The notes: generated by a model from the letters alone, not told the origin. 35,839 nucleotides of DNA from a virus (IMGVR_UViG_3300025570_000048:1-35839), one strand, 5' to 3'. Positions 4,295 through 31,344 are shown, numbered from the stretch's first letter. Program-made: numbers and translations.

Positions 4295-5539
4295 ATGGGT
4301 CGCACGTACGTGATCGGGAAGATCGGCAAGTCTATAAAATTTAAGCCTAGCACGTGGGGTGCTATCGGCGGAGATAATGAAGCACCCACACTATATCTTA
4401 AGTTAGCTGAACTTAATCCTGATGATACTTTTATCATGATAGGCAAAAGCGATCTTTATAAGATGCGTGGCTTGCCCACAAATCTTCATGATGCCTGGGC
4501 ACATTACACGAAAGGTGAATCTGATGCCATAGCGTTTATAACTAATCATCTGAAGAATACTAAGGTTGATGCTGGAATTATGGTAGCTGGTCCAACTGGC
4601 GACGTAAACTTTCAAGAAAGGATATACACTCTATCTTCGATTAAAGCAGGTAAACCACAACTAGCCAAAACTCTGTTTATGCACGAGAATTACAGCGGTC
4701 CTATTTATGATTATCTTAATGATAGCATGATACCTTGGATAATGATTAACAATGATCCGCGGTATTTAAAGCTTGGCCGAGATATGTTTAATATGCCAAA
4801 AGAAATACTTTCACAATACGATTCAGCTAAATTGTATCGTCACATATCTTCATATGAAGACCAAACTCTGTTAGTCGATCATCGAGTACAATATAAGTAT
4901 GCTGGTGTAGAAAAAGTCTTTCTTATTAATAAAGAATTGGTTAATATCGAAAAGACTAAGAAGTTTATGGTAGTTCTTAATGAAGGAAGTAATGGTGTTA
5001 GTTCGCGCTATAACAAGTTAAAAGAATATGTACTTGACCACGTTGAGGACGTTGATATTTATGGCAAATGGGATGAAGACACTGTAAAAGGCGATAAGCG
5101 CTTTAAAGGGTCGATTAAGTTTGAGGAACTGCAGCAGATGTTACCTGAGGTCAAATATTCCTTTATGATATCTATTCGAGACGGTTGGGTTACAATGAAA
5201 GTTTGGGAATTGATTAGCAATGGTATTATACCGTTCTTGCATCCAAATTATGACGACCAACACCATATTGCAGTACCCGAGTTTTTGAGACTTAGTAAAC
5301 CTGAAGAGTTACACGAGCGCATTGAGCAACTTGAAAACGACCCTGTCTTATATAATAAGATATTACAGGAATGCCAATATCTTATTACACCAGATGATAC
5401 AAGCGGCAAAGTATTATGCGATAAGATTACTAGTACAATAAATAACTATCGAAGCTCTACTACAGGAACCAAATCTTATGATGAAGTTCTTCAAGAAATA
5501 GCCGATGATAGTAATGATTTAACGCACTTCTTTGGATGA
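4295..5539 (+). CDS. Glycosyltransferase resembling T4 DNA beta-glucosyltransferase
   Basis: 414 residues, longer than T4 Bgt (351). The C-terminal half lines up by eye with T4 beta-glucosyltransferase: a strand plus SSRYNKLKEYV, then RFKGSI before the nucleotide-sugar site, then WVTMKVWELI followed by an acidic stretch ending DDQHHI, against FITLRVWETM and DTKHRI in T4. The Glu of the VWE motif (Glu305), which contacts UDP in Bgt, is conserved; the preceding Arg is Lys302. This suggests a GT-B enzyme adding a sugar to hydroxymethylcytosine in DNA. The donor may not be UDP-glucose, given the adjacent nucleotidyltransferase-kinase. The alternative is a glycosyltransferase acting on another target. 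It has its own promoter, and its stop overlaps the methyltransferase-like gene (ATGA). Confidence 0.65.
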   Translation: MGRTYVIGKIGKSIKFKPSTWGAIGGDNEAPTLYLKLAELNPDDTFIMIGKSDLYKMRGLPTNLHDAWAHYTKGESDAIAFITNHLKNTKVDAGIMVAGPTGDVNFQERIYTLSSIKAGKPQLAKTLFMHENYSGPIYDYLNDSMIPWIMINNDPRYLKLGRDMFNMPKEILSQYDSAKLYRHISSYEDQTLLVDHRVQYKYAGVEKVFLINKELVNIEKTKKFMVVLNEGSNGVSSRYNKLKEYVLDHVEDVDIYGKWDEDTVKGDKRFKGSIKFEELQQMLPEVKYSFMISIRDGWVTMKVWELISNGIIPFLHPNYDDQHHIAVPEFLRLSKPEELHERIEQLENDPVLYNKILQECQYLITPDDTSGKVLCDKITSTINNYRSSTTGTKSYDEVLQEIADDSNDLTHFFG

Positions 5540-6771
5540 TTAATAAAATGAAAAATGATTATAGTTGGGCCCCTCACATACCGCTTATTGGCGGCCTCCC
5601 ACTTGGCGCAGAAGCAGCACTAGGTAAAGCACCTAAATTTGTATCAAGTCTTGATGGGTTTTGGGCTAATGATAGTCTTTATATGAACCATCAGAACGAA
5701 ACGCTGTCTCGTGGAATAGACTACCGACCTTTAGACCCAGGCGAACGCAGTTTTGTTGAAAAGGTTAACATTGTTGTATCAACACCACCATGCGCAGGTT
5801 TATCACAATTGAATACTGGTAAAGCTAACTCTGCAGCAAAAGGTGCTGATGCCGAAAAGAATCAGTTTATGTACATCGCGGCTGAACAGGCAATGAAGTG
5901 TTATGATGCCGATGTAATCGTTGGCGAGAATGCTCCTGCGCTATATACAAATAAAGGAAAGCCAGTTGCGGATAAGCTTTTACAAATTGCACGTGATAAT
6001 GGGTATTCTTTCTCATTGTATAAAACAACTACCTCTTTACATGGTATTCCTCAGAATCGCGACCGTACGTTCTACACATTTTGGAAAGGCGATAAAGCAC
6101 CAATTCAATCATGGTTTAACGAATCACGTAAAAACTTCCCTGATTACTTGAAAGAAGTAACCAATGAAATGTCTCACCAAAGCGACATTATCAATGATAA
6201 AATCGGTACTGGCGAATCGTATTATAACTTCATTCAGTATAAGAACCCTGGCGAAAATCCTCGTGATATTGTGATTGCGAATAATTGCTCAACTGCATTC
6301 AATTATGTTAGGCGCGGTGGCTTCTTACAGGAAGCGATTGACTACTTTGAAGCGATTGATGATACAAAAGGCTTGCATTTAGCAACACATGCTAAAATGA
6401 AATTCTCTAAAGGCTTAGGCATTTGGGATGGTTCAACTCACGTATTCAATGAATGTATGAATGCATGTATCAGTCGTAACATGAATGATACAATTCATCC
6501 AGTGCATGACCGTTCAATGACTATTCGCGAAGCATTACATATGATGGGCTTTCCGCATAACTTCAGTCTCCCTGGTGGAAAACGTAGTGTACCGTTTATT
6601 GCTCAAAACGTTCCGGTATGTACTGCAGCGTCAATGGTCGGTGAAGCAGTTAAGTTTTTAAATGGCGAATTGGAATTATCTGATAGTGATTTTGTTAAAC
6701 AAAACAATCATCATCAACGAATAGATGCAGGCAATATTGCAACAAACACATTAGAACAATTCATTGCGTAA
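5536..6771 (+). CDS. DNA cytosine-C5 methyltransferase family protein
   Basis: 411 residues with C5-methyltransferase motifs in order: a variant motif I/II region (IGGLPLGAEAALG, then SLDGFWANDS), motif IV STPPCAGLSQ with the nucleophile Cys86, motif VI GENAPAL (Glu131-Asn132), motif VIII PQNRDRTFY, motif IX TIREALHMMGFP and a motif X-like QNVPVCTAASMVGEAV. Motif I lacks the usual DLFAGxGG form, so SAM binding may be altered. It could methylate phage DNA against restriction, or act as a modified member of the family within this modification block. The start at 5536 overlaps the previous stop; an in-frame ATG at 5548 is an alternative start. Confidence 0.8.
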   Translation: MINKMKNDYSWAPHIPLIGGLPLGAEAALGKAPKFVSSLDGFWANDSLYMNHQNETLSRGIDYRPLDPGERSFVEKVNIVVSTPPCAGLSQLNTGKANSAAKGADAEKNQFMYIAAEQAMKCYDADVIVGENAPALYTNKGKPVADKLLQIARDNGYSFSLYKTTTSLHGIPQNRDRTFYTFWKGDKAPIQSWFNESRKNFPDYLKEVTNEMSHQSDIINDKIGTGESYYNFIQYKNPGENPRDIVIANNCSTAFNYVRRGGFLQEAIDYFEAIDDTKGLHLATHAKMKFSKGLGIWDGSTHVFNECMNACISRNMNDTIHPVHDRSMTIREALHMMGFPHNFSLPGGKRSVPFIAQNVPVCTAASMVGEAVKFLNGELELSDSDFVKQNNHHQRIDAGNIATNTLEQFIA

Positions 6772-6775
6772 ACCA

Positions 6776-6804
6776 TTGACATCAATACAGAACTGTGATA
6801 TAAT
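6776..6804 (+). promoter_or_regulatory. Sigma-70-type promoter before the primase-like gene
   Basis: TTGACA at 6776-6781, 17 bp, TATAAT at 6799-6804, in the 56-base gap after the methyltransferase-like gene. A GGAG Shine-Dalgarno precedes the ATG at 6828. Confidence 0.85.
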
Positions 6805-6827
6805 TAATTGAATTGGAGTAATACACT

Positions 6828-7769
6828 ATGAAAATATCTTTAACTATATTTCAGTCTCTGTACGATAACAAAACTCATCGGCAGTTCACGGTTAGCGATT
6901 GGCCCGACTTCGTTGAGTTTTTATATACGCTATCTAAAAAACCGATAAAGTCAAAAACCGACGCAACACTGATTTCGCCTGCGGTATACAAGGAAGACCG
7001 TACTCGAAGTAATGATGCTGTTACGTGTTGGGGTGGTTGGGCAGCAATGGACGTTGACGCTCATGACTTTACAAATGAAGAACTTCAGGAAACGCTAAAA
7101 GCAAAATATGGTCAGTACTCATATGTATGTTATAGTACAGCAAGTTCATCAATTAAAACCCCTAAGTTCCGCTTAGTATTCAAACTCGACAAAAGAATAG
7201 AAAGTCAAAAGATTCGCCAGCTTTGGTATGCACTTAATACTGAAATTGGTGAACTAGGCGATCGTCAAACAAAAGACTTAAGCCGCATGTATTATATTCC
7301 AGCAACATATGATAATGCAAATAACTTTATCTTTCATAATGACGGTAACACTATTCCTACTGAAGAAATAATCAATAAACATCCGCTACCATCACGCAAA
7401 ACTGGTAAATCGTTTTTTGATAGAATGCCTGAGTCAATGCAAAAGATGTTTATTGAACATCGTAAAACTCAGCTGAGTAATACATCGTATAGGTGGAATA
7501 ACTATTCGGATTGTCCGTTTCTATCAAAAAGAATGCTTGACTCATACCGAGCTACTACCTATCAAAAAGATTCAGGAAGATACATAAAAATGTACGAAGT
7601 TATGGTGCATGTCGCATCAAATGCAATAAAGAAAGAATACCCAATAACTGGAGGAGAGATAGTAGATTTGTGTAAACAAATTGATATGGAAACTGGTAAC
7701 CGCTATGCAAAACGTGCATGGGATACCGAAGCAAACCGAGCAATTGAATATGCATATAGAAATAATTGA
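6828..7769 (+). CDS. Archaeo-eukaryotic primase (AEP)-like protein
   Basis: 313 residues. The N-terminal 160 residues look like the AEP/primpol fold of phage primases: a D-x-D metal motif in AAMDVDAHD (Asp75, Asp77), then YSTASSSIKTPKFRLVF, then RQTKDLSRMYYIPATY. The second motif usually contains a His (T-x-S-H type); here the position reads Ser/Ala, so activity or exact family is uncertain. The C-terminal half is basic and helical. It leads the replication cluster (UvsX, gp41) and may take the place of the T4 gp61 primase, which was not seen in this window. Confidence 0.55.
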   Translation: MKISLTIFQSLYDNKTHRQFTVSDWPDFVEFLYTLSKKPIKSKTDATLISPAVYKEDRTRSNDAVTCWGGWAAMDVDAHDFTNEELQETLKAKYGQYSYVCYSTASSSIKTPKFRLVFKLDKRIESQKIRQLWYALNTEIGELGDRQTKDLSRMYYIPATYDNANNFIFHNDGNTIPTEEIINKHPLPSRKTGKSFFDRMPESMQKMFIEHRKTQLSNTSYRWNNYSDCPFLSKRMLDSYRATTYQKDSGRYIKMYEVMVHVASNAIKKEYPITGGEIVDLCKQIDMETGNRYAKRAWDTEANRAIEYAYRNN

Positions 7770-7798
7770 TTGACATTCATGTGTGTTTTTGATATAAT
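7770..7798 (+). promoter_or_regulatory. Sigma-70-type promoter before uvsX
   Basis: TTGACA at 7770-7775, 17 bp, TATAAT at 7793-7798 followed by AGATCTA. The -35 box begins at the last base of the TGA stop of the previous gene. AGAGG Shine-Dalgarno about 10 bases before the ATG at 7830. Confidence 0.88.
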
Positions 7799-7829
7799 AG
7801 ATCTAAATTAATAAAAGAGGTTTTACTTT

Positions 7830-8882
7830 ATGAGTCTGATGGCAAAATTAAAAAAGAGTAGTCGAATCAAAGAAACTGAGATTCTTTCAGAGTCAAAACT
7901 ATTCAATGAAATGGAAATGACACCAACCGATGTTCCTATGATGAACGTTGCGTTAGCAGGTGGCCTTGAGGGCGGTATATCGCCAGGGTTAACGGTTTTT
8001 GCAGGACCAAGCAAACACTTTAAGACAAGTTTCTCATTAAAGATTGCGGCTGCATATCTTGCTGAGCATAAAGACTCGGTAATGATGTTTTATGACTCAG
8101 AGTTTGGCTCACCGCAATCGTACTTCGAATCGTTTGGCATTGACTTAGATCGAGTTTTACATGTCCCTATCACTGATGTTGAAGAACTTAAATTCGATTT
8201 AATACATCAACTTGAAAACATTGAAAAGAAAGACAAAGTTATTATCGTAATTGATTCTATCGGTAACCTTGCATCTAAGAAAGAATTGCAAGATGCTAAA
8301 GACGCTAAATCAGTTGCTGATATGTCGCGTGCAAAAGCACTTAAAGGCTTATTCCGTATGGCAACTCCGTATCTTACAATGCGTAATATTCCAATGCTAG
8401 CTATTAACCATACTTATCAGGAAATGGGTTTGTTTCCAAAGGCTATTGTTAGTGGTGGTACTGGTATTTACTATAGCGCATCAACTATTTGGATACTAGG
8501 TCGCCGTCAACAAAAAACCGGTACTGAAGTAACAGGCTATGAATTCGTCATTAACGTTGAGAAGTCTCGTTATGTTAAAGAGAAGTCAAAGATACCAATT
8601 ACCGTTACTTGGGAAGGCGGCATTGAAACTTACTCAGGATTGATTGACGTAGCAATGGCTGGTAACTTTGTACAGAAACCTAAGAACGGTTGGTATGCAA
8701 TTGTTGATCGTGAAACTGGTGAACTAGGTCCAAACAAACGTCTTAAAGATACTATGAACGCCGAGTTTTGGGATCCATTATTATCATTAACGGCCTTCCA
8801 AGAATTTATACGTGGAGTATATAAAATTGGTTATAAGTCTACTTTAACTGAAGAGTTCTTAGGTAATACAGTTCAAGAATAA
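7830..8882 (+). CDS. uvsX: UvsX-type RecA-like recombinase
   Basis: 350 residues. RecA-fold strand-exchange ATPase of the T4 UvsX family. Walker A is GPSKHFKT (residues 59-66, close to the T4 form GPSKSFKS). Walker B is IIVIDS with Asp142. The L2-region segment AINHTYQEMG and the SGGTGIYYSAS stretch are typical. The N-terminus (residues 1-40) carries a short basic segment as in UvsX. It catalyses homologous pairing for recombination-dependent replication and repair together with the gp41 helicase encoded downstream. It has its own promoter, and a further promoter follows the stop, so it may be a single-gene transcript. Confidence 0.93.
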   Translation: MSLMAKLKKSSRIKETEILSESKLFNEMEMTPTDVPMMNVALAGGLEGGISPGLTVFAGPSKHFKTSFSLKIAAAYLAEHKDSVMMFYDSEFGSPQSYFESFGIDLDRVLHVPITDVEELKFDLIHQLENIEKKDKVIIVIDSIGNLASKKELQDAKDAKSVADMSRAKALKGLFRMATPYLTMRNIPMLAINHTYQEMGLFPKAIVSGGTGIYYSASTIWILGRRQQKTGTEVTGYEFVINVEKSRYVKEKSKIPITVTWEGGIETYSGLIDVAMAGNFVQKPKNGWYAIVDRETGELGPNKRLKDTMNAEFWDPLLSLTAFQEFIRGVYKIGYKSTLTEEFLGNTVQE

Positions 8883-26291: not shown

Positions 26292-27923
26292 ATGAGAGAT
26301 ATTTTAGTTACTAAACGCGACGGAACAAAAACTCCACTTGACATTAACAAAATACATGATGTAGTAGAATTTGCTTGTGCAGGCTTGACCGGTGTTGCAC
26401 CATCTGAAGTCGAAGTAAAAAGTCATATCCAATTCTCAAATGGTATTACTACTAGTGATATTCAAGAAACTCTAATCAAATCAGCGTCAGAACTAATCAG
26501 CGAAGAATCACCTAACTACCAGTACGTTGCAGGACGTTTAATTAATTTCCATTTACGGAAACTAGTCTACGGCCAATTCGATCCTCTAGACCTCATTGAG
26601 CATTATAAAAACAACGTTCTGTTAGGTTGGTACGATAAGAATCTTTATAACCAATATTCAAAAAATGATTGGGAATTTCTTAATTCAGTTATAAACCATA
26701 GTTTGGATTTCAACTTAACATATGCTGCTATGGAACAGTTTAGAGGCAAATATCTTGTACAGAATAGGGTAACGAAGGAAATATTTGAGACACCTCAGAT
26801 GCTTTATATGCTCGTATCAATGACATTGTTTGCTGATTATCCAGTAGAAACAAGAATATCGTATGTTAAGAAATATTATAACCATATATCGAAAGGCAAT
26901 ATCTCATTACCTACTCCGATACTTGCAGGTGTAAGAACTCCTGATAGACAATTTAGCTCATGTGTATTGATTGAAACTGAAGATAGTCTTAACTCAATTA
27001 GCGCAACCAATGCTGCTATTATTCGATATGTTAGTCAGAAAGCAGGTATCGGTATTGGCGGTGGTTCAATTAGAGCAACTGGTTCTCCTATTCGTAATGG
27101 CCAAGCATCACATACCGGTGTTATTCCTTTTTATAGAACATTTCAGAGTTCAGTAAAGTCATGTTCACAAGGCGGAGTTCGTGGCGGTGCTGCTACTTTA
27201 TATTATCCGGTATGGCATCTTGAAATTGAAGATCTTTTAGTATTAAAGAACAATAAAGGCGTTGAGTCAAATCGTTTACGTCAAATGGATTATGGCGTAC
27301 AGTTTAACAAATTAATGTATGAACGTTTAATAACTAATGGTAACATTACATTGTTTAGCCCAAGCGATGTTCCTGGGTTATATGATGCATTCTTTGCCGA
27401 TCAGGATAAGTTCAAAGAAATATACGAAAAGGCTGAACGTACTACTCATATACGAAAGATAACTGTTAAAGCACTTGACTTGTTTACTACCTATATTCAA
27501 GAACGTAAAGATACTGGTAGAATTTATCTACAGAATGTTGATAACGTAAATATACAAGGGTCGTTTAAACCTGAAGATGCACCAATCAAAATGTCTAATC
27601 TTTGCGTAACTGGCGACACTGAACTTGACATTATTGTAGATGGCATTTCCATGTTTAACGTGCCAATCATTGATGTTATAGGTTATGCTTGTAGAGCACG
27701 TGAAGTGAAGGTTAGTGCATATGATATTGAAACTAATACGTTTAAGTATAGCAAAGTCTCAAAAGGTGCGATGACTGGTCGGGACCGAGAGTTAATGGAA
27801 ATCGAAGATGACACAACAGGCAAAAAGGTAATATGCACGCCTGAACATCAAATATACACTAAGAACCGTGGATATGTTGAGGCTAGAAATTTAGTTGAAA
27901 CTGATGAACTTTTTATAGGATAA
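26292..27923 (+). CDS. nrdA: Ribonucleotide reductase class Ia large subunit, N-terminal part fused to N-half of a split intein
   Basis: 543 residues. Residues 1-437 are NrdA from the N-terminal ATP-cone-like segment (VTKRDGTKTPLDINKI) through ISLPTPILAGVRTP, FSSCVLI (first redox Cys), the active-site loop GIGIGGGSIRATGSPI and SGFK-equivalent regions, to KMSNL. At Cys438 the sequence changes to an intein: CVTGDTELDI (block A) and ICTPEHQIYT (block B, T-x-x-H) with NRGYVEARNLVETDEL, ending in a true stop at 27921. The extein breaks immediately before the Cys that carries the thiyl radical (Cys439 in E. coli), which is supplied by the C-terminal gene at 28713. Not a pseudogene: both halves and all junction residues are intact. 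Confidence 0.92.
   Translation: MRDILVTKRDGTKTPLDINKIHDVVEFACAGLTGVAPSEVEVKSHIQFSNGITTSDIQETLIKSASELISEESPNYQYVAGRLINFHLRKLVYGQFDPLDLIEHYKNNVLLGWYDKNLYNQYSKNDWEFLNSVINHSLDFNLTYAAMEQFRGKYLVQNRVTKEIFETPQMLYMLVSMTLFADYPVETRISYVKKYYNHISKGNISLPTPILAGVRTPDRQFSSCVLIETEDSLNSISATNAAIIRYVSQKAGIGIGGGSIRATGSPIRNGQASHTGVIPFYRTFQSSVKSCSQGGVRGGAATLYYPVWHLEIEDLLVLKNNKGVESNRLRQMDYGVQFNKLMYERLITNGNITLFSPSDVPGLYDAFFADQDKFKEIYEKAERTTHIRKITVKALDLFTTYIQERKDTGRIYLQNVDNVNIQGSFKPEDAPIKMSNLCVTGDTELDIIVDGISMFNVPIIDVIGYACRAREVKVSAYDIETNTFKYSKVSKGAMTGRDRELMEIEDDTTGKKVICTPEHQIYTKNRGYVEARNLVETDELFIG
27603..27920 (+). other. Split intein, N-terminal fragment
   Basis: 106 residues from Cys438 of the nrdA N-part. Block A starts with the nucleophile Cys and TGDTEL. 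Block B has C-T-P-E-H with the conserved His. The C-terminal blocks F and G are missing here and are found at 28713, so splicing must occur in trans. Confidence 0.92.
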
Positions 27924-27934
27924 ATTGCTAAAAA

Positions 27935-27991
27935 GGTAGGTAGAGAGATTTCAGTTTGTATAAATAAACTATAGAAATAACTCTACCTACC
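27935..27991 (+). promoter_or_regulatory. Hairpin before the GIY-YIG gene, with late promoter in its loop
   Basis: GGTAGGTAGAG (27935-27945) pairs perfectly with CTCTACCTACC (27981-27991). The 35-base loop contains TATAAATA (27959-27966) and an inner AGTTT/AAACT stem. The right arm ends 12 bases before the ATG at 28004, next to the GAGG Shine-Dalgarno (27995-27998), so the closed stem should hinder initiation on read-through RNA. Confidence 0.75.
27959..27966 (+). promoter_or_regulatory. T4-type late promoter in hairpin loop
   Basis: TATAAATA, exact, 38 bases before the GIY-YIG start. Late RNA would begin after the hairpin's left arm and escape the structure. Confidence 0.65.
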
Positions 27992-28003
27992 AATGAGGCA
28001 ATC

Positions 28004-28723
28004 ATGTTTATAGTTTACGAGCATAAGAACACTTTAAATAATAAAAAATATATCGGATACACGTCAAAGACAATGAACGAAAGATTACACAAACATTACA
28101 TTAACGCGATTTCAGGAATGGATAATCATTTCTATAAAGCGATACGTAAATATGGTTTGGAAGTCTTTGAGTCGAAAATATTAGAAACTGTTGCAACACA
28201 ACTTGAAGCAACTAATTTAGAAGTTAAACATATCGAACTTAACAATAGTTTTAAGGAAGGTTATAACATGACAAAAGGTGGGGACGGTGGTTATGTTGTT
28301 CCAGCCGAAAAACGTGATGATTGGATCAAAAAACTAACAGCATCCTCGACCAAAGAAAACAATGGTATGTGGAGTGGAATATCAGATGAAACCATATTAT
28401 CATATGCTAGAGAGTTCTTTTTAAGCGAGGGTCATTCTAGTGGAATGCAATCGTTTATTAATTATGGCGTAAAGAAATATTCCATACCAAAATCATATTC
28501 AAAAAATAGGTTCGGCGGCAAGACATTAAAACAGGCATATTGTGAAAAGTACAATGTTAACCCAACTGAACTAAAATATGTCAAATCTGCTGCTCACCGC
28601 GAAAAATTAAAAAACGCGAATATTGGTAAAAACTGGTATTCAAATGACAATTTAAAAACATCATACCAAGCGAACTCACTCCCGGGAAACGATTGGTATA
28701 AAGGAAGAAATTATGGGTATTAA
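28004..28723 (+). CDS. GIY-YIG homing endonuclease between the nrdA halves
   Basis: 239 residues. GIY-YIG domain at 1-90: FIVYEHKNTLNNKKYIGYTSKTMNERLHKH (the GIY position reads IVY, YIG intact, catalytic Arg in NERLHKH), with the Glu in the LEATNLEVKHIEL region and GYNMTKGG closing the domain. The C-terminal part contains SAAHREKLKNANIGKNWYSN, typical of the NUMOD-type DNA-binding modules of GIY-YIG homing enzymes. It is a free-standing gene placed exactly between the two split-intein halves and probably mobilises the intein into intein-free nrdA alleles. A hairpin and late promoter precede it. Its stop overlaps the start of the C-terminal nrdA gene by 11 bases. Confidence 0.88.
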   Translation: MFIVYEHKNTLNNKKYIGYTSKTMNERLHKHYINAISGMDNHFYKAIRKYGLEVFESKILETVATQLEATNLEVKHIELNNSFKEGYNMTKGGDGGYVVPAEKRDDWIKKLTASSTKENNGMWSGISDETILSYAREFFLSEGHSSGMQSFINYGVKKYSIPKSYSKNRFGGKTLKQAYCEKYNVNPTELKYVKSAAHREKLKNANIGKNWYSNDNLKTSYQANSLPGNDWYKGRNYGY

Positions 28724-28814
28724 AATAAGAACACTTGATTACACTGAAAACGTGTATGACATTACCGTTCCTGAAACTAGTAACTTTTTTGCTAATGGTA
28801 TACTAATACACAAT
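28713..28814 (+). other. Split intein, C-terminal fragment
   Basis: 34 residues ending in His-Asn before Cys, the normal C-terminal splice junction. The short length is standard for naturally split inteins. Confidence 0.92.
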
Positions 28815-29804
28815 TGCGCAGAAATTGATTTGCCGACAAAACCTCTTGATGATATTAATGATGAATCCGGTGAAATAGCATTGTGTACGTTATCAGCAAT
28901 TAATTGGGGTAACATTAGTGATCCTTCTGAGTTCGAAGAGATATGTGACTTGTCAGTTCGGGCTTTAGATTCATTACTTGATTATCAAGATTATCCAGTT
29001 AAAGCAGCATACATTGCAACTATGGGTCGTCGTCCACTTGGTGTTGGTATTAATAACTTAGCGTATTGGCTTGCTAAAAACGGTTATACTTATCAAGGCA
29101 TTACTGAAGAAGGATTGTCACATTTACATGAATGGCTTGAAGCATGGTCTTACTATTTGATTAAATCTTCTATCAATCTTGCTAAAGAAAAAGGGGCGTG
29201 TGAATGGTCACGTGAAACTAAGTATTCACAAGGTTTATTTCCAATTGACACTTATAAGAAAGATGTTGATTCATTAGTTGGTAATAACTTAAAAATGGAT
29301 TGGGCTGCATTACGTAATGAAGTTAATGAACATGGGATTCGTAATAGCACTCTTATGGCTATCATGCCTTCTGAAACTTCATCTCAAGTAATTAACTCGA
29401 CGAACGGTATTGAAGCGCCAAGAGCCTTAGTTTCAATCAAACAATCAAAAGATGGTATATTGGCACAAGTTGTTCCTGAGATCCGTAAGTTAAAGAATAA
29501 ATACGATTTATTATGGGATCAGAAATCGCCTGAAGGTTATTTAAAAATATGTGCGGTCATTCAGAAGTTTGTTGACCAAGGCATAAGTGTTAATACATCG
29601 TATAACCCTAAGCACTACGAAGATGGCAAAATGCCTTTAAAAACTCTGATTCGTGACTTATTAACTTTTTATAAATATGGAGGCAAACAGCTATATTATT
29701 TTAATACTTATGATGGTGCTGGCGAATTAACATACGAAGAAGCCAATGATAATCCTGTCAGTGAAGAATTGGATGAAGATGATTGCCCGAGTTGCAAATT
29801 GTGA
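28713..29804 (+). CDS. nrdA: C-half of split intein fused to ribonucleotide reductase class Ia large subunit, C-terminal part
   Basis: 363 residues, with AAGGAAG Shine-Dalgarno 7 bases upstream. Residues 1-34 are the C-intein: NVYDITVPETSNFFANG (block F) and ILIHN (block G, ending His33-Asn34). The C-extein begins with Cys35, both the +1 splicing nucleophile and the NrdA thiyl-radical Cys of the LCxEI motif (here CAEIDLPTKP). It continues with EIALCTLSAINW (second redox Cys), NSTLMAIMPSETSSQ, and the C-terminal redox pair CPSC. Trans-splicing with the 26292 product would give a 766-residue NrdA, close to the E. coli length of 761. Confidence 0.92.
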   Translation: MGIKIRTLDYTENVYDITVPETSNFFANGILIHNCAEIDLPTKPLDDINDESGEIALCTLSAINWGNISDPSEFEEICDLSVRALDSLLDYQDYPVKAAYIATMGRRPLGVGINNLAYWLAKNGYTYQGITEEGLSHLHEWLEAWSYYLIKSSINLAKEKGACEWSRETKYSQGLFPIDTYKKDVDSLVGNNLKMDWAALRNEVNEHGIRNSTLMAIMPSETSSQVINSTNGIEAPRALVSIKQSKDGILAQVVPEIRKLKNKYDLLWDQKSPEGYLKICAVIQKFVDQGISVNTSYNPKHYEDGKMPLKTLIRDLLTFYKYGGKQLYYFNTYDGAGELTYEEANDNPVSEELDEDDCPSCKL

Positions 29805-30250
29805 AAAAAGCAATGTACGTATCAAGAAAGGTATTAAACAGCGAAGATATTATAGCTTGGGCGGAGGCCCAGGCGTTTCCGCAAATAGTATCAGCAAAAG
29901 ACATGCATGTCACTTTAGCATTTTCAAGAGAACCGGTTGATTTCAATGAAGTCGTTAATAGAAACGACAAGATAACAATCAATGGCGGAGAACGTGAAGT
30001 AAAACATTTAGGCCCAGACGCCGCAGTTATAAAATTCTCATCAAAAGTATTATCTAAAAGATGGAAAGAGTTATGTAATATAGGTTGTTCGTGGGACTAT
30101 GATGGTTACCAACCGCATATAACAATCACGTACGATGGTTCAAAAATAAATGTTAAAGACATGACTCCATACAAAGGCCCAATTATTTTGGGTCCAGAAA
30201 TAGTTTCCGAATTAGATGCGGAATGGATAGATAAGGTAAAAGAAAAATAA
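29801..30250 (+). CDS. acb1: 2H phosphodiesterase, Acb1-like (predicted anti-CBASS)
   Basis: 149 residues from GTG 29801, which overlaps the nrdA stop (GTGA); ATG 29813 is an alternative. Two H-x-T motifs of the 2H (LigT) fold: MHVTLAF (His36, Thr38) and PHITITY (His106, Thr108), 70 residues apart. The surrounding segments (AKDMHVTLAFSR, HLGPDAAVIKFSS, GCSWDYDGYQPHITITYDG, PYKGPIILGPEIVSELD) and length match, as I remember it, the T4 57B/Acb1 family, which cleaves cyclic oligonucleotides to silence CBASS. A tRNA-processing 2'-5' ligase-like activity is the alternative. It sits between nrdA and nrdB, an unexpected position for a defence inhibitor. Confidence 0.7.
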   Translation: MKKAMYVSRKVLNSEDIIAWAEAQAFPQIVSAKDMHVTLAFSREPVDFNEVVNRNDKITINGGEREVKHLGPDAAVIKFSSKVLSKRWKELCNIGCSWDYDGYQPHITITYDGSKINVKDMTPYKGPIILGPEIVSELDAEWIDKVKEK

Positions 30251-31344
30251 TGTTTAAATCTTTTGATGTAAATACAAATGATAGTATCACCAAGAATATG
30301 TTCTTTGACGAGCCGGTCGCAATTGCACGATACGATATACAAAAGTATCGCACACTTGAGTCCTTTACAGAATCACAATTAGGATTCTTTTGGATGCCTG
30401 AAGAAATCGACGTATCGAAAGATGCTAAAGACTTTAAAGCATTATCCAACCATGAGCAGCATATCTTTACTAGTAACTTAAAACGACAAATTGTATTAGA
30501 CTCAGTTCAAGGCAGATGTCCTTCAGCAGTGTTTGGCCCTTTGGCATCTTTACCTGAATTAGAAAATTGGATAACTACTTGGGTATTTAGCGAACAAATT
30601 CATAGCCGTTCATACACACATATTATACGTAACATATATTCTAATCCGTCTGAGGTATTTGATGGTATTACTGATATAAAGGAAATCACTGATTGTGCTG
30701 AGTCAATTTCAAGGCACTATGATAATCTTGCACGCCATAACGAACAGGCTGCGGTTGATAGTTCATTGTTTGGAACGTATGAACATAAGAAGCTATTATG
30801 GTTAGCACTACAGGCAACCAATTCTCTTGAAGGTTTACGTTTCTATGTTTCGTTTGCGTGTTCATGGGCATTTGCTGAAACCAAAAAGTCAATGGAAGGT
30901 AACGCTAAAATCATAAAGTTGATTTGTCGAGATGAGAATCTTCACCTTGCTTCAACGGTATTCATGATTAAGAGTTTGCCGCGTGAAGATGAAGACTTCG
31001 CAAAGATTCGCGATGAGTGTCATGACCAATGTGTTGAGATATACGAACAGACTGCAGAACAAGAAAAAGAATGGGCAAAGTACCTTTTTAAAGATGGCTC
31101 AATGGTTGGTCTTAACGAGTCAATGTTATGCGCTTATATAGAATGGTTAGCACATCGCCGAATGAAATCCGTAGGTCTAACTACTAAATACCCTGGTGGA
31201 TCTGATCCTTTGCCTTGGACTAAAAAATGGATAGCAGGTGGTAATGTACAAGTTGCACCTCAAGAAACTGAAATATCTAGTTATACCACTGGCGGTATAA
31301 GTAAAGATGTTAACGAAGAAGAATTTACGGGATTTCAACTATGA
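30250..31344 (+). CDS. nrdB: Ribonucleotide reductase class Ia small subunit
   Basis: 364 residues. The di-iron site is complete: Asp84 (VLDSVQGR), Glu115 and His118 (SEQIHSRSYTHI), Glu194 (SLEGLRFYV), Glu229 and His232 (RDENLHL). The radical Tyr122 is in RSYTHI. It supplies the tyrosyl radical to NrdA. The C-terminal EEFTGFQL is the usual NrdA-docking tail. The start overlaps the stop of the Acb1-like gene (TAATG) and the stop overlaps glutaredoxin (ATGA), so acb1-nrdB-grx are translated as one unit. Confidence 0.96.
   Translation: MFKSFDVNTNDSITKNMFFDEPVAIARYDIQKYRTLESFTESQLGFFWMPEEIDVSKDAKDFKALSNHEQHIFTSNLKRQIVLDSVQGRCPSAVFGPLASLPELENWITTWVFSEQIHSRSYTHIIRNIYSNPSEVFDGITDIKEITDCAESISRHYDNLARHNEQAAVDSSLFGTYEHKKLLWLALQATNSLEGLRFYVSFACSWAFAETKKSMEGNAKIIKLICRDENLHLASTVFMIKSLPREDEDFAKIRDECHDQCVEIYEQTAEQEKEWAKYLFKDGSMVGLNESMLCAYIEWLAHRRMKSVGLTTKYPGGSDPLPWTKKWIAGGNVQVAPQETEISSYTTGGISKDVNEEEFTGFQL

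Follow-up and report, generated by a model that had tools for sequence, protein, structure and literature searches.

This paper describes a fractured nrdA gene of a T4-like phage, located in a stretch of viral DNA of 35,839 nucleotides (IMGVR_UViG_3300025570_000048:1-35839, the whole of which is called the window hereafter). Three open reading frames (ORFs), at the positions assigned to them in an initial annotation of the sequence, encode the N-terminal part of NrdA, a ribonucleotide reductase (RNR), a GIY-YIG endonuclease, and the C-terminal part of NrdA, and both reductase parts carry one half of a split intein. Very probably, the locus is a mobile fractured-gene element at a conserved site of phage nrdA, which would be trans-spliced and would spread by homing. 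Among protein-ligation tools, natural split inteins are the fastest, and this site bears on how genes become broken by them; the related loci show the ways in which such elements move, exchange their cutting domains, and decay.

Intein halves and exteins of the fractured nrdA

The insert in nrdA (27603-28814, 1212 bp) lies directly before the thiyl-radical cysteine codon and consists of, in this order, a 106-aa N-intein, an 80-nt spacer with a hairpin, an I-TevI-like GIY-YIG gene, and a 34-aa C-intein. The N-gene (26292-27923, 543 aa) encodes an ATP-cone, the RNR N-domain, and half of the RNR barrel (profile positions 1-213 of 523), followed by a partial intein domain (PF14890), and the C-gene (28713-29804, 363 aa) encodes an intein C-terminus (TIGR01443, 38.8 bits versus a cut-off of 15.6), followed by the remaining barrel (positions 212-523 of 523). 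These matches and the alignments bear out the initial annotation, which had placed intein blocks A and B at the end of the N-gene and F and G at the start of the C-gene. The exteins (437 and 329 aa) add up to the 766 residues anticipated for the reconstituted reductase, and the spliced product would be a class Ia NrdA of this length. Residue C35 of the C-gene aligns with C439 of E. coli R1 (alignment from residue 438/439, E=2e-114), which we take to be the catalytic thiyl-radical cysteine of NrdA.

The splicing residues are those of a class 1 intein, with Cys at position 1 (C438), a C-terminal Asn (N34), and Cys at +1 (C35); block B reads CTPEH, and blocks F/G read ILIHN directly before the +1 Cys. 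Cys1, the block B Thr and His, and the terminal His-Asn with the following Cys are kept in all complete aligned relatives, and T77, H80 and G88 of the N-intein are invariant in the family alignment. The closest solved intein is NrdJ-1 (8ubs, E=9e-18), and close DNA relatives of the C-intein were found only in the window population and in one further locus (L010). In comparison with locus L009, the pN/pS ratio was 0.38 for the N-extein, 0.41 for the N-intein, 0.41 for the GIY-YIG gene, and 0.32 for the C-intein, and in comparison with L010 it was 0.20 for the C-extein, which indicates that all parts of the fractured gene evolve under purifying selection.

The same locus, with all ORFs open, occurs at 99.9% identity in three other IMG/VR contigs; therefore, it is not an assembly accident, and an artefact of a single assembly was ruled out. 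A group I or group II intron at the break was also rejected, because there was no Rfam match in the window or in the loci L003 and L009, and the gap is occupied by an ORF and a hairpin. A second, continuous nrdA, which according to the initial annotation would refute a fractured gene, was found neither in the window nor in a 77.9-kb contig of the same population. That nrdA is dead and its fragments are drifting is barely credible: some intein-bearing phage nrdA genes have been called degenerating (PMC3653736), but the conservation of open ORFs in the three other contigs, pN/pS values of 0.2-0.4 throughout, and an intact adjacent nrdB speak against such decay.

Unspliced function is highly improbable as well. 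In phage Aeh1, nrdA is split by mobE and works without splicing (PMC3653736, PMC2988022), and by analogy the NrdA halves of the window might associate non-covalently, with the intein pieces as relics. The Aeh1 locus resembles the window in having a homing endonuclease gene (HEG) in nrdA and a hairpin over the ribosome binding site (RBS) that is relieved by a late promoter (PMC2988022), but mobE encodes an HNH nuclease, whereas the window combines a GIY-YIG gene with both intein halves. These halves are full length, with Cys1, the block B Thr/His and the His-Asn-Cys junction intact, and they are under constraint similar to that of the exteins. Moreover, NrdJ-1, a relative, functions as a split intein (PMC7090010), and since the break lies directly before the catalytic cysteine, unspliced halves would burden the active site with 106 and 34 extra residues.

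With an enzyme divided over two ORFs with complementary exteins, an N-intein that ends the first ORF, a C-intein that starts the last, splicing motifs in both, and a free-standing endonuclease gene between them, the locus is a member of the fractured-gene kind and not a separate kind. Later accounts of the fractured genes of Dassa et al. 2009 mention seven nrdA and two nrdJ loci (PMC3653736) and, as in the window, conserved phage enzymes interrupted by a split intein whose halves flank a free-standing endonuclease gene (PMC3653736, PMC7090010). The AceL NrdHF locus also shares an RNR gene on a phage-like contig, a split intein, and an intervening GIY-YIG gene with the window (PMC7891396), but it concerns a beta subunit and a class 3 intein without Cys1, whereas the window has NrdA and a class 1-type intein with Cys first.

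The GIY-YIG gene and its predicted control

The complete GIY-YIG gene expected at the split is present and encodes 239 aa (PF01541, E=2.4e-6, above the family cut-off). In a structure model (pLDDT 88.9), the head of the nuclease resembles the catalytic domain of I-TevI (1mk0; Foldseek E=1e-5, TMt 0.83). Residues Y5, Y16, R27, H31, E73 and N88 are invariant among 25 relatives and, by position, would correspond to the catalytic residues of I-TevI; both the fold and these residues are in agreement with a GIY-YIG homing endonuclease. The C-terminal half is helical and may serve in target recognition. I-TevI of T4 td shares the GIY-YIG head and the same hairpin and late-promoter logic with the window (PMC2988022; 1mk0), but it resides in a group I intron, targets td, and has a DNA-binding half unlike that of the window nuclease.

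The spacer has a folding energy of -34.5 kcal/mol (z=-6.55; equalled by 0 of 200 shuffled sequences), with hairpin arms at 27935-27945 and 27981-27991 and an outer stem (27924-27929 / 27997-28002) that takes in only two bases of the RBS GAGG (27995-27998). The T4-type late promoter motif TATAAATA lies within this hairpin, and for an RNA that begins directly downstream of the motif the folding energy is only -3.8 kcal/mol. The late sigma factor gp55 is encoded on the 77.9-kb contig (phrog_234, E=5e-51), which makes the late-promoter reading credible. Throughout the window and this contig, TATAAATA is found mostly on the coding strand, with several copies 27-38 bp before gene starts; its total count is not above chance in the window alone. 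Two copies in the window (14435 and 17662), 34 and 30 bp before gene starts, are candidate late promoters. Among 52 distinct relatives, the spacer hairpin reaches z<-2 in 37, with stem sequences that differ, and an xATAAATA motif is present in 30.

The folding difference, the position of TATAAATA and the presence of gp55 point to I-TevI-type late control and thereby favour the hairpin-gated late promoter proposed initially. The combination of a hairpin and a late promoter is how phage homing endonucleases are usually controlled, and it has been described for I-TevI, I-TevII, I-TevIII, segB, and Aeh1 mobE (PMC2988022). The initial annotation had called the pairing of a GIY-YIG enzyme with such a promoter notable; the arrangement is indeed present, but its novelty is lower than assumed, as both features have been published. 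Downstream, the last 11 bp of the GIY-YIG gene are shared with the beginning of the C-gene, an overlap suggestive of translational coupling between the two genes.

In the proposed mechanism, both NrdA half-proteins would be made in the same infected cell, where the intein halves would associate and trans-splice to yield the 766-residue NrdA. On transcripts that arise by early read-through, the hairpin would cover the ribosome site of the GIY-YIG gene and thereby keep the enzyme from being made; production would begin late, when gp55-directed polymerase starts at TATAAATA inside the hairpin. During mixed infection, the C-terminal half of the enzyme would bind the uninterrupted nrdA of the other phage, the enzyme would cut it close to the point of insertion, and the whole element would be copied in when the break is repaired from the carrier. 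Harmless trans-splicing would let the element reside in an essential-type gene.

Occupancy of the site and movement of the element

Searches with the extein halves yielded an uninterrupted site in 153 loci, which made possible the comparison with insert-free relatives advised in the initial annotation, including the identification of occupied/empty pairs. An N-intein profile run over the fetched loci detected 118 split N-inteins, 66 of them distinct. In most relatives the site is empty. The distinct split loci carry GIY-YIG (33), HNH (17) or PD-(D/E)XK-like (3) nucleases, a truncated GIY-YIG gene (1), a nuclease remnant only (5), or no nuclease (4), and 3 are unclear. They are spread over several reductase subfamilies, with insertion at SNL^C or one codon further, at SNLC^C. 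On an extein tree, no more than 5 changes suffice to account for the empty and occupied labels, and long branches come together; since sampling was by similarity, the tree was not used for counting gains.

Two cultured phages belong to this series. Yersinia phage TG1 has a split intein at the same nrdA site as the window, but with an HNH nuclease. Klebsiella phage KP13-7 has, like the window, a split intein with a GIY-YIG gene, but the insertion lies one codon downstream (SNLC^C) and its nrdA is interrupted by one or more additional split inteins as well as by another ORF. The second split intein of KP13-7 (L003, 7013-9528) lies further downstream in nrdA, after ..MPGECQS and rejoining at ^TSSQ, and a comparable one is found in L009 (IMGVR_UViG_3300040781_000109, 5711-8381), after ..MPAECQS and rejoining at ^TSAQ. 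Each encloses its own, different free-standing gene, of 323 aa (L003) and 372 aa (L009; no clear Pfam match). A third interruption in KP13-7 nrdA, at VKSCSQG (4876-5574), holds a 128-aa HNH-like ORF and has no Rfam intron match; the nrdA of this cultured phage is in four or more pieces.

Between the same intein halves, L294 (4430-5506) and L312 (5285-6325) contain PD-(D/E)XK-like nuclease ends, with weak TnsA/Phage_endo_I matches. About half of the fractured-gene loci described earlier reportedly carry a Vsr-like nuclease, to which family these two probably belong; the window nuclease differs from it in being of the GIY-YIG type.

Near-identical elements were found in diverged genes. The window and L010 elements are about 97% identical, with flanks at about 75%, and synonymous divergence (dS) is 0.10 for the C-intein versus 1.52 for the C-extein. 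Similar values were obtained for L273/L293 (element 97.5%, flank 73%), L259/L269 (97.4% and 78%), and L300/L295 (97.3% and 78-83%). These patterns indicate horizontal transfer of the element between phages.

The occupied locus L010 and the empty locus L012 are identical at 4901 of 4906 downstream bases, and 4 of the 5 differences, all four synonymous, are within the first 21 bp after the insertion. Two further occupied/empty pairs (L323/L053 and L241/L015, with flanks 92-97% identical) show a one-sided dip, to 80% identity in the first 25 bp versus about 94-98% further out (binomial P of 0.007 and 0.0008, respectively). Short, mostly synonymous tracts adjoining the insertion are the expected trace of co-conversion during homing and point to an element that carried short flanking tracts along when moving; recoding against self-cleavage would look similar.

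Several points weigh against a trans-spliced, homing element. L010 and L012 both end near the site, as contigs from mixed populations would, which makes a chimera conceivable; the other two pairs have flanks of lower identity than L010/L012; and no allele with an empty site turned up in the population of the window itself. Furthermore, the C-terminal half of the nuclease matches no solved structure, the window is a fragment, so that a further nrdA outside it is conceivable, and we infer trans-splicing, cleavage and the timing of expression from sequence.

Nuclease heads, the recognition half and loss of the nuclease

A hidden Markov model (HMM) of nuclease residues 115-181, referred to as the C-half, was used to scan the 10,558 ORFs of all loci. 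Matches were obtained in 39 proteins with a GIY-YIG head and 13 with an HNH head, each of them belonging to a split reductase at this site, as well as in one nuclease remnant at this site (L280) and in a continuous HNH-bearing intein at the same site in Dickeya phage Kamild. As the model was trained on 25 of the GIY-YIG proteins, the 39 GIY-YIG matches are partly by construction; those to the HNH proteins, which were found via the intein, and to the Kamild intein are not. The C-half is present in 11 of the 17 distinct HNH loci and absent from 50 GIY-YIG-headed ORFs elsewhere (HMM scan, 0/50). The window C-half, searched independently by tblastn against 50,697 phage genomes, matched only 17 Dickeya phages, all within nrdA (weakly, E=0.05), a degenerate motif scan of 2.9 million viral contigs returned five contigs, all at this RNR site, and in cellular genomes only catalytic-head matches were obtained, none carrying the C-half. 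A common NUMOD-type domain as its source was rejected, since residues 115-181 match no Pfam family and since the C-half is absent from the 50 ORFs elsewhere; only the segment after these residues resembles NUMOD3 (L271, E=0.002).

The splicing domains of the Kamild intein match at E=0.005 and 3e-5, whereas its C-half reaches E=1e-14. This better conservation of the C-half suggests that the nuclease module passes from one intein of this site to another. The corresponding region in Kamild and 16 relatives (L011, 5300-6340) has a weak HNH match and is annotated only as ribonucleotide reductase.

That the GIY-YIG gene is a passenger in a pre-existing split intein, homing elsewhere or no longer homing, is very unlikely. 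Split loci that lack a HEG show that the intein can persist without a nuclease gene, and neighbouring genes are often cut by free-standing HEGs; against this, the nuclease travels with the element as a single unit, the C-half keeps to this site in three architectures, the co-converted tracts adjoin the insertion itself, and the catalytic residues are invariant.

Loss of the nuclease has left several forms. In L010, the N-intein continues in frame into the GIY-YIG gene tail as the result of a deletion between TGAACT repeats, and the same kind of fusion arose independently in L277. Nuclease tails only are retained in L283, L304, L278 and L280, and short gaps separate the halves in L257, the intein halves of which are presumably the published NrdA-2, and in L274, L295 and L316. 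The genes remain split after nuclease loss because the C-gene keeps its own start. At this site, L325 (4184-6341) has a mini-intein from the same family that is continuous (cis); its 18-residue joint reads 'SANGNASGLSERFI' and resembles the beginning of the nuclease C-half. L325 could represent a split intein that has re-fused, although 14 residues prove little.

Taken together, it is rather likely that at one site the same recognition half occurs under GIY-YIG heads, HNH heads and intein-borne HNH heads, with the head swapped and the target kept, and that the element passes from empty to nuclease-bearing to nuclease-less split and possibly to re-fused (L325) forms. If true, head swapping and this cycle would reveal how split inteins arise and get locked in. 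The literature searched, which did not include Dassa et al. 2009, contained no description of a shared recognition half, head exchange, or occupied/empty pairs; part of the comparison may therefore be known. The site offers a natural series of empty, occupied, decayed and continuous forms, and since it includes near-identical phages and cultured ones (TG1, KP13-7, and the Dickeya phages), homing, head swapping and loss are directly testable. Moreover, new split inteins can be drawn from the 66 loci, as can nucleases directed at an RNR sequence that is universally conserved.

Table 1. Features of the fractured nrdA locus and its partner gene, with positions in the window.
Feature	Position	Strand	Basis
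nrdA N-extein, residues 1-437 (ATP-cone, all-alpha domain, first barrel part)	26292..27602	+	Pfam and NCBIfam class 1a NrdA, profile 4-440/761
N-intein C438-G543, blocks A/B, and N-gene stop codon	27603..27923	+	PF14890, alignment, NrdJ-1 8ubs
Spacer with strong hairpin	27924..28003	+	Folding energy, z -6.55; hairpins in relatives
TATAAATA, putative T4-type late promoter motif within hairpin	27959..27966	+	Sequence, relatives' spacers, gp55, RNA folding
GIY-YIG gene; head residues 1-95, putative recognition half about 115-239	28004..28723	+	PF01541, model, 1mk0, invariant residues
C-half module, residues 115-181	28346..28546	+	HMM scan of 10,558 ORFs; tblastn of 50,697 phages
C-intein, 34 aa, blocks F/G (..NFFANGILIHN)	28713..28814	+	TIGR01443, alignment
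nrdA C-extein, 329 aa, first residue Cys = E. coli C439	28815..29804	+	E. coli R1 alignment
nrdB, partner subunit (context)	30250..31344	+	phrog_86, E=2e-132

Elsewhere in the window, the region 4295-5539 has a weak match to a beta-glucosyltransferase family (phrog_7922) and is possibly a DNA-modification gene.

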